Part shown: positions 35,500 through 42,757 of the stretch, piece by piece
Position numbering within the stretch: position 1 is the stretch's first letter
How the letters are laid out: each line of letters begins with the position of its first letter
Assembly (NCBI RefSeq): GCF_030540775.2
Contig: NZ_CP141266.1
Span: 4,265,001-4,329,000 of the forward strand
Direction: 5' to 3'
DNA length: 64,000 nt
Source of the DNA: Flavivirga abyssicola
GTDB taxonomy: Bacteria > Bacteroidota > Bacteroidia > Flavobacteriales > Flavobacteriaceae
Notes under the pieces: generated by a model
The model's database searches: none
Seen by the model: only the letters and a program-made list of their open reading frames with translations
Told to the model about the DNA's origin: nothing
Position numbers and translations under genes: made by a program

Positions 35500-37353
35500 C
35501 TATATTCCTGATAATAATTTAGTAGCCATATAAATTGCAAATAACGCAGCAAAATTATTAACTGCATGAAAAACAATTCCTGTGAATAAGCCATTTGTAC
35601 GCTTAACAGTATAGCCTGTAATAATTCCAAAAATAAAATAAAAAATAAAAAACTTTAAACTAAAGTGCACTGTAGCAAATAAGCATGCTTGTATAATATT
35701 TGCACGTGCAAACCCTAAGTGTTTTTCTGTAGAAGACAAAATAACACCTCTAAATATAATCTCCTCATAAAACGGGACAATCAAAGCCACAATAAGTACT
35801 GAAATCACAAAACCATATTCATTAAATACGGCAACTATCTCCTCTTTTGCACTTAATGCTTTAATAAAATTAGCCGCATCGGTTAAATCAAAAAAACCGC
35901 CTAAAATTTTCAGTATTATGAAATTAAAAACCACAAAAAGGATACTAAATCCTATCATCTGCCTGAAACTAAAAATTGAGCTTAACACAAATTTTAGTCG
36001 TTTTTTATTTAGAAATAATAATGTCGAAACGAGCATAAGACTTGAAAAAACAATAACAGAATTTGCTATTTCCAACTCACTTTCTACAAGGCTTTCATCA
36101 ACATATGAATACCCAATATCAAATAGGTAATTGATATAATCTTGATAATAGTAGACAAGCCCTAAAACAACTTGGCAAAACAAATAAAAAAAACTAATTA
36201 CCCAAAAATGTTTAAGAGACCAATTCACAGATAGTTTTTCTTCTGTTTTAACCTTTTCCAGTTTAAAAAACCTGCTAAAACTATAAATTGGTAAAATCCA
36301 TAAATAGGGTATTAAAAATAAAACTACAATTAAAGCTACTAAGATCAGTAAATGTGAAATTTCAGTAAATGTCCAAGATTCAAAAGGTGATTTTATAAAT
36401 AATTTCAACCTTTTAATCCCTAAAAAATCATCATAATAACTTTCCTTTTGCAACCTTCTATAACTTTCTAATGCTAATTGGGGGTTTGAATACAATAAAT
36501 CATGACTAAATAATTTCTGAATATTTATAGTTTTATTCCAAGTATCAAGTGTATCCTTCAATAAATACATTCGAGCTTGTTTATAATTTTCTTTTTCTAA
36601 AAAGATTTTGTACAAACCCTCTGTATTTAAAAGCGTAGAATCCTTTTCATTAACACGATCAAACATTTTTAAAGCTTTTTCATATTCATTTAACTCAACC
36701 AAAAGCTTTCCTTTTTCATTTAAAACCCATGCTTCATGATCAATGTCTAATGACGTCAATAATCTTTTCTTTGCTTTTTCTTTATTATTAAGATTTAAAT
36801 AAGCCCTAGAAATTAAAACTGATAAATCGAGTGTATCATTAAATTTTTCAGCTTTTTTTGCATAAGAAATTGATTTATAATGATCATCATAAAAACGATT
36901 TGCACAAATCTCATAAAAATGACTAATTTGTTCAAAGTTCCAATCCGTTTCATTCGATTTGTAAATCGATATAATATTATCTATAAGTTCATTACCCTCT
37001 TCTCCATATGTGTTTTCTAATTTGTATAGTAATACTTCTGGATTATTAGGATAGGTACTATACAAGTCATCAATGCATTCTTGAGTTTCCTCATATTTTA
37101 AATTATAGCCTTCATTTTCATCATAATAGGCACTCCCAATGAATTTACATTTATACACTTTTACTGTAATGTTTTCAGGGTGCAACGCTATAAAATTATT
37201 ATATGCATTTAATATGTCTTGGTATTTTATCTCTTTGGAGTTTGTTAATGTCTTTACAAATAGGGTGTAACTATTTTTTTGATTAACTTTTATCCCTTGG
37301 CTAGAAACAGAGAATGTAAATAAGATGAAGACTAATTGTAAAAACTTTTTCAT
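35500..37353 (-). CDS. TPR-containing CPBP-family intramembrane glutamic protease
   Basis: A 617-residue membrane protein. After a signal-like segment (MKKFLQLVFILFTFSVSSQG) there are about 300 residues of TPR-like helices on the outside, then about seven membrane helices. The C-terminal CPBP (ABI/CAAX protease) domain has the full motif set: FYEEIIFRGVIL (paired Glu and Arg), ATVHF (His) and IVFHAVNNFAAL (His/Asn). It is the last gene of the minus-strand run, 6 bases after the QEGLA peptidase, so it is cotranscribed with it. It could cleave or export a peptide made by that cluster; this is inference. Confidence 0.85.
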   Translation of the reverse strand: MKKFLQLVFILFTFSVSSQGIKVNQKNSYTLFVKTLTNSKEIKYQDILNAYNNFIALHPENITVKVYKCKFIGSAYYDENEGYNLKYEETQECIDDLYSTYPNNPEVLLYKLENTYGEEGNELIDNIISIYKSNETDWNFEQISHFYEICANRFYDDHYKSISYAKKAEKFNDTLDLSVLISRAYLNLNNKEKAKKRLLTSLDIDHEAWVLNEKGKLLVELNEYEKALKMFDRVNEKDSTLLNTEGLYKIFLEKENYKQARMYLLKDTLDTWNKTINIQKLFSHDLLYSNPQLALESYRRLQKESYYDDFLGIKRLKLFIKSPFESWTFTEISHLLILVALIVVLFLIPYLWILPIYSFSRFFKLEKVKTEEKLSVNWSLKHFWVISFFYLFCQVVLGLVYYYQDYINYLFDIGYSYVDESLVESELEIANSVIVFSSLMLVSTLLFLNKKRLKFVLSSIFSFRQMIGFSILFVVFNFIILKILGGFFDLTDAANFIKALSAKEEIVAVFNEYGFVISVLIVALIVPFYEEIIFRGVILSSTEKHLGFARANIIQACLFATVHFSLKFFIFYFIFGIITGYTVKRTNGLFTGIVFHAVNNFAALFAIYMATKLLSGI

Positions 37354-37359
37354 TATATG

Positions 37360-38520
37360 TTACTTCAAACTCCTTAAAATAAAATCCACCTTTTTATTAG
37401 TATTATTATTTACAGCATAAGAGTCTGTAATATGCTTCGCAGGAACTGCTAAACCCTTTTTAATAAGTACTTCTATTTCATTTGCATATTCCAGAGTTAC
37501 CTTCCCTGTCAATAATAAACTTAAATTTTTTCCTTCTTGATAATAATTGTAAATCTTTTTAAGTCCAGTGAGATACAAATAATCTTTAGTAAAACCACCT
37601 CCTCTATGTACGCGTACGGTTATATAAAAAGCTACTTCTCTATCTAAGTCGTATTGATTATGTAGCAATCTAAAGGTTTTAGAAAATGAATAGCCTTTTG
37701 CCAAACTATCTACAGCAATAACACGATATGCCAACTCTTTTAAGCGTGTTATTGTCAAATTATCACTCATATATTCCGAAAAAACCGCTAATCCCTCTTG
37801 TGTTTCCTCATTATTAGGAAATCCATGAGAAAATATTTTCAGAGGATGCGATAGTCCATTCATAGTTGTTACCATGTGCACCCCTATTTCATGGTTGGTT
37901 AGTACAGCTATTTCATTATCAGAGTAGGTATGATTTGTATTTAAAACCAAAGTTCTGTTATTATTCAGTACCATGGCTATTGCAGAAATTTTATCGGATT
38001 GTTTTATAGTATAACTGAAATCATATTTCTTTGAAAATGCTTTAAAAAACGGTTCTGCTTCAGAGGCATTATATTTTGGTATAAAATCCGAAACATTTTT
38101 ATCTTCATCATCAAAATGAAGAATAAACTTAGCGTTTTCTACATCTCTTTCTGTAGGGGTTCCAAAACAACGCAAAGAATTATAATAGAATTTCTTTCCG
38201 CTACCTATAGTTTCTATACATTGTATAAGCCCTGAATATTCATAAATAATATCCTCATAAAGATTTTTGATTTCAGAATCTTCAATAAGTTCCAAAGATT
38301 GTGTAAATAATTCTCTATGTAGTTTAAACTTATCGAAATTTATATTAGGGTATTTAAAAACAGGATCGGTTAAATATTTAGATGAAAAGAACCTCGTTTT
38401 TTCTTCTTCAATATTAATAGGATTCACAAAACTCAGCAATTCTATTTGCTTAACTAATGAATCGATACTCTTATCAATCTGTAAAAGTGCCTGGGTAGAC
38501 ACATCATTATCAATCTTCAT
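37360..38520 (-). CDS. QEGLA-motif zinc peptidase (DUF1704, MATCAP-like)
   Basis: A 386-residue metallopeptidase of the family known as flavohemoglobin expression-modulating QEGLA protein. The zinc motif is HEIGVH (residues 210-215, HExxxH) and the third-ligand motif QEGLA is at 241-245. Eukaryotic homologues (MATCAP) remove the C-terminal tyrosine of tubulin, so a carboxypeptidase or peptide-tag role is plausible. In bacteria the family is often found with N-formylglutamate amidohydrolase and GshB-like ATP-grasp genes, as here. Substrate unknown. It starts 8 bases after the amidohydrolase stop. Confidence 0.88.
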   Translation of the reverse strand: MKIDNDVSTQALLQIDKSIDSLVKQIELLSFVNPINIEEEKTRFFSSKYLTDPVFKYPNINFDKFKLHRELFTQSLELIEDSEIKNLYEDIIYEYSGLIQCIETIGSGKKFYYNSLRCFGTPTERDVENAKFILHFDDEDKNVSDFIPKYNASEAEPFFKAFSKKYDFSYTIKQSDKISAIAMVLNNNRTLVLNTNHTYSDNEIAVLTNHEIGVHMVTTMNGLSHPLKIFSHGFPNNEETQEGLAVFSEYMSDNLTITRLKELAYRVIAVDSLAKGYSFSKTFRLLHNQYDLDREVAFYITVRVHRGGGFTKDYLYLTGLKKIYNYYQEGKNLSLLLTGKVTLEYANEIEVLIKKGLAVPAKHITDSYAVNNNTNKKVDFILRSLK

Positions 38521-38528
38521 AATACTTC

Positions 38529-39359
38529 CTATCTTTTAAACTCACTATACACTCTTAATGCATGTTCTGGGATTCGAGATATTAGTTCTTTTTCTACTGT
38601 TCGAACAACTTCTGGATATATAATCCCATCAGATTCATCACAATACACTTTTGCAATTTCGGTTGCCAAAACTAAGGTATTTTTAAAGTTCTGGGTAATG
38701 TATTTTAAGAAATATCCATGACCTTGAAATGTATCATTAATTTTTGAAGTTGATTTAATGTCGTTTGGAAATGTAATTTCAGATAGACTTTGCCTCCAAT
38801 CTTCAATACTATCTCCAAATCTAACATTATCAACATTACTAGCACCTAAATTCCAGGTTGGCACCTCCCTATCCCAACGTTTCCAATTGTAACTATGCAT
38901 ATCGTAAACGGTACAAAATCCAAATTTACTTTCTAATTTTTGAACAAGTGTATGTACAACTTTGTAAAAATTAGTGTGCTTTCTAAGGCTTTTATCTTTC
39001 ATTGTTTGCGAAAGCGGTTTGCGCCATAACTGTTTTCCCCAAGCCGTTTCAAAAACAGCTTCTTCGGGCATTCTATTTAAATCGTATTCAAATCTGGAAT
39101 CACACCCCGCAATAACAATGGGATGCGATTTAATCATATTCTTAGTCTCGGGATCTTCTTCATACCAACGCTCATATTCGGTATGCATACAGTTATCCCA
39201 AAGTTCTTTTCTAAATTGATGTCCATCGTGTATAGCTGCGCAAGCATAGGGTACGTAAGAATCTATCTTAATGGTAAATGAATAGTCTGAAGAGACCGCT
39301 TCAAAGATTTCTTCTTTACAAATTTTGCTTATAATATCTTTAAGCGAAAGCTTTTCCAT
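38529..39359 (-). CDS. N-formylglutamate amidohydrolase-like protein
   Basis: A zinc-dependent amidohydrolase of the HutG/PF05013 family, 276 residues. The visible motifs are CAAIHDGHQFRKELW, then AGCDSRFEYDLNR with the Asp/Glu/Asn metal and substrate residues, and FCTVYDMHSYNW. No histidine-degradation genes (hutU, hutI, hutH) are near, so it is unlikely to serve the Hut pathway. The neighbours are an amide ligase and a peptidase, which suggests removal or capping of a glutamyl-type amide. It starts 3 bases after the sulfurtransferase stop. Confidence 0.85.
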   Translation of the reverse strand: MEKLSLKDIISKICKEEIFEAVSSDYSFTIKIDSYVPYACAAIHDGHQFRKELWDNCMHTEYERWYEEDPETKNMIKSHPIVIAGCDSRFEYDLNRMPEEAVFETAWGKQLWRKPLSQTMKDKSLRKHTNFYKVVHTLVQKLESKFGFCTVYDMHSYNWKRWDREVPTWNLGASNVDNVRFGDSIEDWRQSLSEITFPNDIKSTSKINDTFQGHGYFLKYITQNFKNTLVLATEIAKVYCDESDGIIYPEVVRTVEKELISRIPEHALRVYSEFKR

Positions 39360-39362
39360 GGT

Positions 39363-40184
39363 TTATTTATTAACTAAACTACCCCACTCGGTCCAGGAAC
39401 CATCATAAACGGATATATTTTTATAGCCAGAAATATTGGCTCCTAAAGCTAATACACATGCTGTAATTCCCGAGCCACAGGAAAAAATAATAGGATCTTC
39501 TTTATTGGCTTTTTCATTCAAAGCTGCTTCAATGGCTTCTCTAGATTTTAATTCACCAGCATCTAATAGATTCGTATAAGGTAAATTCACCGAATTAGGA
39601 ATAGTTCCCATTCGCAAACCTGCTCTTGGTTCTGGTTCTAAACCTTTAAACCTTGTCTCTGAGCGTGCATCTATAATACGATGTGTTTTATGTTCTGAAG
39701 CCTCTTTCATGGCATTAAAAAACGTCATGTTTTCCGGTTTGTAATTAGCTATAAAATCACCTGATTTGCCATCATATTCTTTCATAGCTTCGATATCATA
39801 ATTCGCTTTTTCCCAAGCAGGAAATCCACCGTTCAAAACAGCAATGTTATCATAGCCAAAAGCTTTAAACAGCCACCAAACCCTAGCACTTGAGTAAATA
39901 CCTTTGTCGTCATAGACCACAATAGCACTATCTTTATTTATACCTAAAGTCCTTGCTTCTCTTTGAAAATGCTCCTCTGTTGGAAATGTACTAGGAAACG
40001 GTGCATTAACATCACTAAATTTCTTTTTAATATCAAAAAATCGAGAGTTAGGTATTTGGACTTGTGTGGTATCAAATACTTTATTTATAGTACCGTCCAG
40101 AATAATAAGATTATTAGCTTCTATGTTTTTATGAAGCCATTCTACAGATACTAATGGTGATGATATTGAAATACTGGAATTCAT
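39363..40184 (-). CDS. Two-domain rhodanese sulfurtransferase
   Basis: A thiosulfate or 3-mercaptopyruvate sulfurtransferase, 273 residues. Two rhodanese domains are present: an inactive N-terminal one (about 10-130) and a catalytic C-terminal one with IIFSCGSGITACVLALG, where the Cys opens a CGSGITA loop. That loop type favours 3-mercaptopyruvate as donor. RIIDARSETRF and GTIPNSVNLPY are the usual CH2-type features. It heads the tightly spaced four-gene run ending in the CPBP protease. Its relation to the amide-ligase set may be functional or incidental. Confidence 0.9.
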   Translation of the reverse strand: MNSSISISSPLVSVEWLHKNIEANNLIILDGTINKVFDTTQVQIPNSRFFDIKKKFSDVNAPFPSTFPTEEHFQREARTLGINKDSAIVVYDDKGIYSSARVWWLFKAFGYDNIAVLNGGFPAWEKANYDIEAMKEYDGKSGDFIANYKPENMTFFNAMKEASEHKTHRIIDARSETRFKGLEPEPRAGLRMGTIPNSVNLPYTNLLDAGELKSREAIEAALNEKANKEDPIIFSCGSGITACVLALGANISGYKNISVYDGSWTEWGSLVNK

Positions 40185-40307
40185 TTGAAGCTTTCTTTAA
40201 CTGGCAATAATGCTAAAATTTTATTTTATTCTTTAATCTAAATAAGAGTTAGCTACTTTTTATGTTATAATAGTACTGTATATTTCTCTCACAAAGAGAT
40301 TAATAGA

Positions 40308-40340
40308 ACACTGCGACTGCTAACTGTAACTGAATACTGA
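40308..40340 (-). repeat. Diverged CAGT-type repeat after the ATP-grasp gene
   Basis: On the minus strand this reads TTCAGTATTCAGTTACAGTT then AGCAGTCGCAGTG. The second half shares GCAGTCGCAGT with the array around 2080-2090. It begins 6 bases after the stop of the gene ending at 40347, again in the sense orientation. Confidence 0.65.
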
Positions 40341-40346
40341 ATATTA

Positions 40347-41387
40347 TTACGCATCCTGTACTGTTTTACGAAGTCTGGTACGTCTATCAAAAGCTTGAAG
40401 TTTATCTATAACTTTCATTTCTAAAAAGTCAATGACTTTTTCTTCAATCTTGGTTTTTAGCTTGTACACTTTATTAATGTATGTAATACCTCCCGGAGAC
40501 ATAACGTTAACTTCCACTAACTTACCTCCAATAACATCAATCCCGACAAAATACAATCCGTCGTTTACCAATTTAGGACCTATTTGCTTACATAATGCTT
40601 TTTCTGCTTTAGTCAAACTGTGCTTTTGCACACTACCGCCTGCTGAAACATTAGAACGATGATCGTCTGTTCCCGGAACACGCTTCATAGCTCCTACAGG
40701 CTCTCCATTTAAGATTAAAATACGTACATCACCTTCATCTGCTCCCTCTATATAATCTTGAAGAATCACATAATTAGACGTACCATTACTACTATTATTA
40801 ATATAAAAATCTAATAATGAATTAATATTACTCATCGCCGACTTTTCAATTAAAATAACACCAGAACCACCAAAACCGTTTAGAGGTTTTAAAATCATTT
40901 TATCTGCGGTAGATTCTTTAATCTGACGTATTAAGTACTTTTTACTTTTTGATACGTGTGTGGCTGGAATAATGTTACTATGCGCATCGCCAAAAGCAGC
41001 GGTATATAATTTATTATTAGCTTCCCGCATGCCTTCTAAGGAATTCATAATAAAGACATCATCTTTAACAGAATCTAGAAAATTAAGCATAATAGGATCC
41101 AAAGGAGGGTTTGCTCTAAAAAATATCACATCAAAACCTGCCAACGGAAGCATTTCTTCTCGAAGTTCTGCTTTATTATAAAATGATTTTAAGGAACTAG
41201 GTGTTTTTTCCATCCTACCTATCACCATACACGAAGCGTTCGTTACACTATTTCGAATGGTTAAATTAGCAGGTGAACATATCGCTACACCATGTTTTCT
41301 CTTCACACATTCTTTAATTAAAGCTAGAGATGTATCATTTTCAGGGTCGATTTCTTCCCACGGATACATTATAAAACACACATTCAT
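40347..41387 (-). CDS. GshB/RimK-like ATP-grasp amide ligase
   Basis: An ATP-grasp ligase related to glutathione synthetase and RimK, forming a carboxylate-amine bond through an acyl phosphate. I use ATG 41387 (MNVCFIMYPWEEIDPENDTS), a better N-terminus than TTG 41417. The glycine-rich loop LNGFGGSGVILIE, the acidic YIEGADEGDVRILIL and the metal-binding FVGIDVIGGKLVEVNVMSPGG are present. It is 346 residues. A true GshB would normally be paired with GshA, which is not here; this organism class uses bacillithiol, so a different peptide or tag product is more likely. Neighbours are a QEGLA peptidase and an N-formylglutamate amidohydrolase-like gene. Confidence 0.84.
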   Translation of the reverse strand: MNVCFIMYPWEEIDPENDTSLALIKECVKRKHGVAICSPANLTIRNSVTNASCMVIGRMEKTPSSLKSFYNKAELREEMLPLAGFDVIFFRANPPLDPIMLNFLDSVKDDVFIMNSLEGMREANNKLYTAAFGDAHSNIIPATHVSKSKKYLIRQIKESTADKMILKPLNGFGGSGVILIEKSAMSNINSLLDFYINNSSNGTSNYVILQDYIEGADEGDVRILILNGEPVGAMKRVPGTDDHRSNVSAGGSVQKHSLTKAEKALCKQIGPKLVNDGLYFVGIDVIGGKLVEVNVMSPGGITYINKVYKLKTKIEEKVIDFLEMKVIDKLQAFDRRTRLRKTVQDA

Positions 41388-41434
41388 CGTTATTCTTTTT
41401 TTAGGATCATTTTTCAATCTTAAAGTTAAATATA

Positions 41435-42757
41435 TTATTTTACTTTTTCATAATTATCATCCCATTCTTTAGGTTGAGGTTTGTGTAATTTTCCTAAAGA
41501 TTTAGCAACCATCATAGATACAGTAGCATCCCCTGTTACATTTACAACCGTTCTACACATATCTAAAGGTCTGTCTACAGCAAAAATAAGTGCTAATCCT
41601 ATAGGTAATAATTCTGCTGGAAAACCAATAGATTCTAAAACTATAACCAACATCACCATACCAGCACTAGGAACAGCTGCACTACCAATAGAAGCCAAAA
41701 GTGCTGTTGCGATTATAACCAATTGATTTGTAAACGTTAACCCCTCAGGCCAGATAACCTGCATAATAAATACGGCTGCAATACCTTGATATAAACTCGT
41801 TCCGTCCATATTAACCGTAGCACCTACTGGTAAAACAAACCCAGATACTTCCTTATCAACTCCAAGATGTTCTTCTACACGTTCCATAGTAACAGGTAAA
41901 GTTGCAGCGCTACTACTTGTAGAAAAGGCTAACAGTTGTGCCGGACTAATTTCTTTTAAAAACCACAACGGTGATTTTTTTGTATAAAAACTTACTAAAA
42001 GAAGGTAAAAACCAATCATTAAAATTAAGCCCCCAACAACGCATAAGGCATAATTTAATAACTTAAGAAGTATTTCAGTATCATCAAAGGCAATAATAAC
42101 GTTTGCCATTAAAGCAAACACGGCATAAGGTGCAAAAAGCATAATTAAATCAACCATTTTCATAACGACTTCATTCAACGAATCGAAAAAATCCACTAAG
42201 GGTTTTGCTTTTTCTTCTGGAATTAACAATAAACAAATACCAACAAATAAGGCAAAGAAAATAACTTGAAGCATTTTTGCGTTTCCTAATGCTTTAAATA
42301 TATTACTTGGAAAAATATCGACTAATGCCCGTAGAGGACCAGCATCTTTTTGTGCAGTTGCTTTTGTAAGCTTGTCGGCCACACCTGCATCATTTGCATA
42401 TTTAGACTTGATCTTTTCAATGGTATTTTGAGACATCCCATCACCAGGTTTTACCATATTTACAATACTTAACCCTATAATTATAGCTACTAATGTTGTT
42501 GTTATGTAAATACCTATGGTACGTAACCCCATGGTTTTAATTTTAGAAATATCTTTTAAGTCTGAAATTCCTTTTATTAAAGACGCTAAGATTAATGGTA
42601 CTGCAATAAGCTTAAGCAAGTTTATAAAAATGGTTCCAAAAGGTGAAATCCAATCACTTACAAAGTCTTTCCCTCCAACGGAATTCATAATAAAACCAAA
42701 AATGATTCCAAGAATCATTCCTATAATAATCTTCCAATGTAATGCTAGTTTTTTCAT
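41435..42757 (-). CDS. Dicarboxylate/amino acid:cation symporter (DAACS)
   Basis: An inner-membrane transporter of the GltP/GltT family that imports glutamate, aspartate or C4-dicarboxylates with protons or sodium. The 440 residues include the serine-rich hairpin SSSAATLPVTMERVEEHLG, the NMDGT motif in VGATVNMDGTSLYQG and helices typical of the family. An insertion of about 50 residues (SQNTIEKIKSKYANDAG and following) between early helices matches the longer Bacteroidota members. It lies directly upstream of the ATP-grasp gene (47-base gap, same strand), so it may feed that pathway with an acidic amino acid; this is inference. Confidence 0.92.
   Translation of the reverse strand: MKKLALHWKIIIGMILGIIFGFIMNSVGGKDFVSDWISPFGTIFINLLKLIAVPLILASLIKGISDLKDISKIKTMGLRTIGIYITTTLVAIIIGLSIVNMVKPGDGMSQNTIEKIKSKYANDAGVADKLTKATAQKDAGPLRALVDIFPSNIFKALGNAKMLQVIFFALFVGICLLLIPEEKAKPLVDFFDSLNEVVMKMVDLIMLFAPYAVFALMANVIIAFDDTEILLKLLNYALCVVGGLILMIGFYLLLVSFYTKKSPLWFLKEISPAQLLAFSTSSSAATLPVTMERVEEHLGVDKEVSGFVLPVGATVNMDGTSLYQGIAAVFIMQVIWPEGLTFTNQLVIIATALLASIGSAAVPSAGMVMLVIVLESIGFPAELLPIGLALIFAVDRPLDMCRTVVNVTGDATVSMMVAKSLGKLHKPQPKEWDDNYEKVK

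Follow-up and report, generated by a model that had tools for sequence, protein, structure and literature searches.

A candidate make/break amide module of a GshB-like ligase, an FGase-class amidase and a MATCAP peptidase in Flavivirga abyssicola and other bacteria

In the human tail cycle, ligases of the ATP-grasp type (TTL and TTLL) and hydrolases of the M14 type (the CCPs) act on the same protein tails, and MATCAP was recently identified (2022−2023) as a missing tubulin detyrosinase. This report concerns a bacterial gene cluster with a comparable set of enzymes, found in a 64,000-nucleotide stretch of the Flavivirga abyssicola genome, hereafter the window (contig NZ_CP141266.1, positions 4,265,001 to 4,329,000). 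Three of its genes, encoding a GshB-like ATP-grasp amide ligase, an N-formylglutamate-amidohydrolase (FGase) class zinc amidase, and a MATCAP/QEGLA zinc peptidase, recur together well beyond this organism, and the explanation that fits them best, to which we assign a rough probability of 0.65, is that they would form a cytosolic module that makes and breaks an amide.

The window MATCAP has the Pfam family, the fold, and the HExxxH and EGLA-type motifs in common with human MATCAP/TMCP (KIAA0895L, KIAA0895), and the joint action of a ligase and a hydrolase in the human tail cycle is a further likeness to the trio. Unlike the human MATCAP/TTL(L)/CCP set, the bacterial module has a ligase that is GshB-like rather than TTL-like, a second hydrolase that is FGase-like, and clustered genes, and tubulin is not to be expected as its substrate. 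The human TMCPs take Tyr and Glu off C-termini and make chains of Glu shorter (PMC10499314). A second likeness is offered by RimK-RimB and RloA-RloB-RloC (Pseudomonas), in which an ATP-grasp enzyme is paired with a peptidase for glutamate-rich sequences, the Rlo system having a hypo-osmotic phenotype (PMC12239564). The peptidases of both systems are retropepsins, whereas none of the six proteins encoded at the window locus belongs to an aspartyl-protease family, and the window ligase falls outside the RimK subfamily (rimK_fam, 89.5 bits against a cut-off of 143.4). Finally, the module amidase is akin to N-formylglutamate amidohydrolase and the aspartoacylase/succinylglutamate desuccinylase enzymes in its FGase fold and motifs, and differs from them in its modest PF05013 score (44 bits) and in having a ligase and MATCAP as partners instead of a catabolic pathway.

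The families involved are already known, and an ATP-grasp ligase with opposing peptidases is a known kind of system of which the trio is a variant. A survey by Iyer, Abhiman, Burroughs, and Aravind (2009, Mol Biosyst 5:1636) reportedly catalogued ATP-grasp ligases with peptidase neighbours and may include a GshB-FGase-DUF1704 neighbourhood, and there is a fair chance that the outline of the module has been predicted before. Among the papers listed by our literature search we recognised no work on the bacterial ligase/FGase/MATCAP trio, and none of them stated the role of the bacterial MATCAP relatives.

Co-occurrence of the three genes in Bacteroidota and beyond

Two draws of genomes were analysed, one of 198 genomes from the class and one of 395 Bacteroidota genomes from the phylum, and in both the MATCAP family (PF08014) is uncommon, occurring in 7 and 19 genomes, respectively. 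A ligase scoring at least 396 bits against PRK12458 was found in 18 of the 395 genomes, every one of them a MATCAP genome, and in none of the 376 others (Fisher p of about 3e-30, with relatedness left uncorrected). Seventeen of these ligases exceed the curated cut-off of 408 bits, as does the window ligase (452.5 bits), and the remaining one (G040) is slightly below it; the top match of the next genome drops to 215 bits. The sole exception among the 19 MATCAP genomes is G360, which has no such ligase. Two class-draw genomes (G088 and G075) likewise carry both genes, and in each of three genera (g3, g4, and g44) one member has both MATCAP and ligase and another has neither.

The arrangement of the genes was followed in a near set, made up of the 80 loci with the highest similarity among 240 from named genomes (69−90% identity), and in a wider set of 20 Bacteroidota flank loci. 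In the wider set, ligase and MATCAP share a cluster in 18 of 20 loci; of the other two, one belongs to G360 (L029), and the other (L010, from G088) has the ligase and an FGase-MATCAP gene at the starts of two separate contigs. In the near set, FGase adjoins MATCAP in all 80 loci with a median gap of 15 bases, and 79 of them have the ligase, the one that lacks it (L119) being cut by the contig start. Rhodanese, which lies between ligase and FGase in the window, is present in 77 of the 80 near loci and 3 of the 20 wider ones, and a DAACS-type symporter gene in 69 (upstream of the ligase) and 8, respectively. The gene at the other end of the window cluster, for a CPBP protease, was met in a single near locus (L051, at the same place as in the window) and in no wider locus. 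Those of the five non-CPBP genes that are present share one strand in 80/80 near loci.

On the basis of these gene counts, the conserved core consists of ligase, FGase, and MATCAP, the symporter and the rhodanese are accessories of one lineage, the Flavobacteriaceae, and the CPBP protease is a chance or late neighbour. The initial annotation had treated all six genes as one unit with the protease acting last; this holds for the ligase, FGase, and MATCAP, the rhodanese and the transporter are reduced to lineage accessories, and the protease, with its 1/80 and 0/20 occurrences, was rejected as a member, so that its supposed final step is left unsupported.

The trio also occurs in other phyla. 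With the window MATCAP as the protein query, 72,556 plasmid records gave 127 matches, 79 of them in Sinorhizobium, and eight plasmid loci were taken for a comparison of their open reading frames (ORFs) with the three core proteins. The full trio was found in seven (two from Sinorhizobium meliloti, one each from Shinella, Phyllobacterium, and Rhizobium RCAM05350, and two from Photobacterium), and the eighth, from Pseudoalteromonas, has QEGLA alone. In both Photobacterium loci, FGase and MATCAP are one protein of 662−665 aa. The S. meliloti and Shinella genes are annotated as N-formylglutamate amidohydrolase, QEGLA motif protein, and glutathione synthase/synthetase. On the Rhizobium sp. RCAM05350 plasmid (L128:4858-7576) the FGase match and the MATCAP match are each split over two frames that overlap, which suggests that the copies are disrupted or that the sequence has errors. 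The lone Pseudoalteromonas QEGLA gene (L125:127-11450) is near betABI and a BCCT transporter gene, with astD/astA on the other side. COG3930 is here taken to be the QEGLA family. A table of clade-2-specific genes of Vibrio vulnificus has VV2_1203 (COG3930) next to VV2_1204, a glutathione synthetase (PMC3091676).

The association of ligase, FGase, and MATCAP therefore exceeds chance and recurs widely, and the three genes, or a replacement of the FGase described below, are one co-inherited unit; its recurrence among distant bacteria makes it likely that the trio is a single biochemical system. Co-conservation with the ATP-grasp gene, on which the initial annotation had in part let its proposal stand or fall, was found for FGase and MATCAP.

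Motifs, folds and subtypes of the core proteins

The residues expected of active enzymes are well preserved. Among 100 MATCAP sequences, HExGxH is kept in 99, missing only in G360, the literal EGLA in 92, and RxxRGGG.[TS]KD in 95, and the zinc-site residues H210, E211, H215, and E242 are in the list of conserved positions (at least 95% of filled rows). Human MATCAP aligns across the same segment, with HEIGTH and EEGLA. In the FGases, HxGH is present in 94/96, D[LV]NR in 95/96, and DxHS in 94/96, the miss in L010 being a contig-end truncation. The ligase retains unchanged three E. coli GshB residues, which we take to be the metal site, and its D294, E302, and N304 are in the conserved list. The window FGase passes PF05013 (cut-off 28.9 bits) and gives no match to NCBIfam models; the window MATCAP scores 328 bits against PF08014 (cut-off 27) and is below the cut-off of the NCBI QEGLA model TIGR02421 (311.9 against 338.65). 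None of the core proteins has a signal peptide that is evident by eye.

Structure models of FGase and MATCAP were obtained with a mean pLDDT of 89.2 and 89.3, respectively. The FGase model is nearest to solved FGases (2q7s, TM 0.71) and then to M14 carboxypeptidases (TM 0.35−0.42), and a search by sequence for solved structures of this protein found none at E values up to 10. The MATCAP model is nearest to human MATCAP (TM 0.51−0.59, the best Foldseek match being 7z5g with TM 0.59 and E 7e-8), and the next fold match is the carboxypeptidase BsuCP (TM 0.45).

The 24 ligases and 25 MATCAP domains placed in trees fall into two subtypes that agree between the trees (support 100/100 and 100/99), except for two hybrid genomes and the MATCAPs that have no ligase in the tree; the long branches of G360 and Pseudoalteromonas are unsurely placed. 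Subtype A, which includes the window, other Flavobacteriaceae, G062, G088, and Photobacterium, has the order ligase-FGase-MATCAP, and in G062, G088, and the two Photobacterium loci a gene fusion joins the FGase fold to MATCAP. Subtype B, from other Bacteroidota and rhizobia, has a long MATCAP followed by the ligase, usually with FGase in front. The long MATCAPs (n = 12) bear an N-terminal extension of 240−283 residues, for which a Pfam scan of four of them (L034, L012, L013, and L014) gave no match. Compared by hhalign with a profile of 94 stand-alone FGases, the extension matches nearly end to end (93%, E 3.6e-7, 15% identity), and the controls (the profiles for ligase, MATCAP, and AspA as well as five column shuffles) reach at most 2.1%. 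HxGH, D[LV]NR, and DxHS are absent from the extension in 12/12 proteins, and we read it as a putative FGase that was fused to MATCAP and lost its activity, with the active amidase kept as a separate gene. The hybrids, G282 and G296, are Flavobacteriaceae that combine a subtype-A ligase (93% identical to the window ligase in G282) and a window-like FGase with a subtype-B MATCAP and then a subtype-B ligase in place of the short MATCAP. A MATCAP-ligase fusion suspected in G404 (a 914-aa ORF) was rejected: Pfam finds no MATCAP in that ORF, the frames differ, and the G404 MATCAP has its own frame of 691 codons.

FGase is absent from 4 of 21 genomes, and all four have an AstE/AspA-like gene near the ligase, as against none of the other 17 (p 1.7e-4, for a comparison picked after seeing the data). 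The ORF gap between this gene and the ligase is 87 bases in G165 and 15 bases in G537. HxxE-, DLNR-, DxH-, and Glu-type motifs, with the roles that we assume for them, are readable in the AspA-like alignment in an order comparable to that of FGase. By hhalign the AspA-like proteins have no match to the FGase profile (0.1%); the two families presumably share the M14-like clan. That an AspA-like gene stands in for FGase suggests that a hydrolase of the N-acyl-acidic-amino-acid type is needed beside the ligase.

Other pairings of these families were seen. At least 12 of the 21 genomes, as judged by eye, have a RimK-like ligase with an AspA-like gene as its immediate neighbour, including that of F. 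abyssicola (RimK-like ATP-grasp and AstE/AspA-like matches at G000:C1:1445350-1446018 and 1446133-1446675, outside the window). A GCS2 ligase is beside a second FGase in G345:C42:9793-11599, G385:C5:281408-283239, and G360:C3:208653-211257, and the G360 pair has a weak ATP-grasp match directly upstream.

The locus in Flavivirga abyssicola and its accessory genes

The F. abyssicola genome is a single contig of 4.68 Mb with one MATCAP match, and the nearest named relative found is Flavivirga amylovorans, with a MATCAP that is 90% identical. The cluster (Table 1) is flanked by aroC and a plus-strand DCC1-like gene. All six minus-strand ORFs, with the families named in the initial annotation, were found at 35500-42757, and the close spacing that it described for the last four was borne out, with gaps of 3 (rhodanese-FGase), 8 (FGase-MATCAP), and 6 bases (MATCAP-CPBP). 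The ligase and rhodanese genes are 162 bases apart, and the symporter and ligase genes 17 bases, or 47 if counted from Met 11 of the ligase, which is conserved among homologues and for this reason is probably the start (gene 40347-41387). Promoter-like sites (38, versus 43 in shuffles) and terminator-like sites (2 versus 3) are not above the shuffles, so the sequence does not settle the transcript structure.

Table 1. The six genes of the window cluster
Feature	Position	Strand	Family match and place in the module
DAACS-type dicarboxylate/amino-acid symporter	41435-42757	-	SDF 6e-125; accessory in Flavobacteriaceae
GshB-like ATP-grasp amide ligase (PRK12458 subfamily)	40347-41417	-	GSH-S_ATP 3e-54, PRK12458; core
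Mercaptopyruvate-sulfurtransferase-like rhodanese	39363-40184	-	Rhodanese 3e-30; accessory in Flavobacteriaceae
FGase-class zinc amidase (PF05013)	38529-39359	-	FGase 4e-11; core
MATCAP/QEGLA zinc peptidase (PF08014)	37360-38520	-	MATCAP 9e-98; core
TPR + CPBP (Rce1-like) membrane protease	35500-37353	-	Rce1-like 2e-18; outside conserved module

In the symporter, D-x-x-R-T, which we take to be the acidic-amino-acid signature of DAACS transporters, is kept in 77/77 homologues, so glutamate or aspartate is a fair guess for its substrate. The rhodanese scores 207 bits against the mercaptopyruvate-sulfurtransferase model, under the cut-off of 250, and a CGSG/CGTG-type loop is present in 75/80. The TPR-CPBP protein of the window has the EExxxR and His motifs, and its TPR_19 match is slightly under the cut-off. 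None of seven proteins (the five from the window other than DAACS and two from relatives) matches the anti-phage defence models of PADLOC at E values up to 0.001.

Additional small genes were noticed in the relatives. A gene of about 108 aa with weak, sub-threshold similarity to TerB was found by pattern in at least 23 of the 80 loci, where it separates rhodanese from FGase (e.g., L079:8821-9147); many of these loci are from Tenacibaculum and Polaribacter, and the gene is absent from the window. In Kordia, one to three small membrane-protein-like genes occupy the same place in 7/8 loci (L099, L108, L115, L116, L117, L120, and L122; none in L113). Lipoprotein-like genes of one family, about 170−190 aa long, are found between ligase and rhodanese in four loci from Aestuariivivens, Seonamhaeicola, and an uncultured relative (L061:7816-8340, L062:7493-8002, L065:7351-7935, and L118:7492-8004).

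What the module may do

Both zinc-enzyme families, which have unrelated folds, cut amides beside a free carboxylate, and for a ligase linked to two hydrolases of this sort a cycle of making and breaking is the best reading. The GshB-like ligase would use ATP to attach an amino acid, which is most likely acidic, to the carboxylate of an acceptor; MATCAP would trim C-terminal residues from the product, and the FGase-class amidase would cut an amide next to an acidic amino acid, its target being either a linkage that MATCAP is unable to cut or an N-acyl cap. We infer the directions of the reactions and the acidic substrate and, from the lack of a signal peptide evident by eye, the cytosolic location, and the hydrolases would presumably counteract the ligase instead of acting after it in a pathway. 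The proposal of the initial annotation, that the set makes and removes either a small peptide or an amide-linked tag, remains the best-fitting one, without the part assigned to the CPBP protease.

Several observations weigh against such a module. MATCAP without ligase in G360 and Pseudoalteromonas means that the family is used outside the module too, and the ORF read in G360 is also devoid of HExGxH; genus g19 has one genome with MATCAP only, and the 80 near loci are close kin. As for the replacement of FGase, the AspA-like gene of G445 is on the opposite strand (gap 34), and that of G075 is 3,106 bases away with two ORFs between. A five-member B-type FGase profile matches the extension at only 2.1%, so the reading as a degenerate FGase depends on the larger profile, which is mostly A-type, at 15% identity. 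Lastly, with GCS2 in 6/19 MATCAP genomes, a gamma-glutamyl precursor is possible there.

If the make/break module exists, the form of it that we tentatively put first is a small-molecule cycle, in which the ligase would make a soluble, perhaps N-acylated, pool of di- or oligopeptides that the two hydrolases break down, e.g., an osmolyte or a nitrogen store turned over as salinity changes. N-acyl acidic amino acids are the substrates of the FGase and AspA-like families, so the replacement of one by the other is in keeping with this form, as are the symporter gene upstream of the ligase in 69/80 near loci and the lone Pseudoalteromonas QEGLA near betABI and the BCCT transporter. In an RNA sequencing comparison of Photobacterium damselae at 1% and 3% NaCl, gshB (RS17020) is up 38.4-fold and the QEGLA gene (RS17025) 27.5-fold at low salt (PMC10308900). 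These two genes stand under different headings in that paper, and the authors treat gshB as glutathione synthetase; it is from the consecutive locus tags that the genes appear to be adjacent and to form one module, and with 1,808 genes changed in the experiment (PMC10308900) their induction is weak evidence for an osmotic role.

A protein-tail cycle, in which the ligase would extend the C-terminus or a side chain of a cellular protein and MATCAP and FGase would remove the residues again, much like TTL(L)/TMCP/CCP with tubulin or RimK/RimB with ribosomal protein S6, appears possible by analogy and somewhat doubtful. It would agree with the action of the characterised MATCAP relatives on protein tails (PMC10499314) and with the precedent of RimK/RimB (PMC12239564), and the RimK-like and AspA-like neighbours in at least 12/21 genomes are a parallel pairing. 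No candidate substrate protein was found, none having been systematically sought, and the small gene sometimes placed between rhodanese and FGase is absent from the window. An extension of this idea that we regard as speculative and rather unlikely is that the operon encodes a bacterial equivalent of the tail cycle of tubulin, in which the ATP-grasp enzyme extends the C-terminal tail of a protein, MATCAP trims it, and the FGase/AspA-class enzyme takes the last, branch-type residue; eukaryotic MATCAP would then derive from a bacterial modification eraser, and the dead FGase domain of subtype B would be a docking or tail-reading part.

It is improbable that the trio is a biosynthetic route, in which the hydrolases would mature a peptide product, either ahead of the ligase or once it has acted: graspetide pathways also pair ATP-grasp ligases with proteases, and the gene order is compatible with such a route, but most loci have neither a precursor-like small gene (ORFs below 90 aa not examined) nor an exporter with the trio, and the lack of signal peptides, as seen by eye, also speaks against it.

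The annotation of these loci would suggest ordinary glutathione synthesis and turnover. PRK12458 bears the NCBI name "glutathione synthetase", E. coli GshB is the nearest solved structure of the ligase by sequence, and the window ligase narrowly passes one glutathione synthase model (PRK05246, 278.7 against a cut-off of 272) but misses another (TIGR01380, 232.4 against 299), so the name alone does not decide. The gamma-glutamylcysteine ligase families PF04262 and PF04107 (GCS2) are both missing from the F. abyssicola genome (GshF and PF08886 types were not searched), so gamma-Glu-Cys is not an obvious substrate, and among the MATCAP genomes PF04262 is in 0/19 and PF04107 is absent in 13/19. 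With the ligase, in addition, strictly tied to MATCAP, glutathione metabolism is a very improbable explanation.

The cluster also suggests that annotation of its genes as "glutathione synthase" or as "flavohemoglobin expression-modulating QEGLA motif protein" is misleading, as such names may also be in the P. damselae salinity paper (PMC10308900). Since Bacteroidota, rhizobia, and Photobacterium all link MATCAP to a single kind of ligase and a single kind of amidase, the role of bacterial MATCAP is directly testable, with three soluble enzymes and one predicted product.

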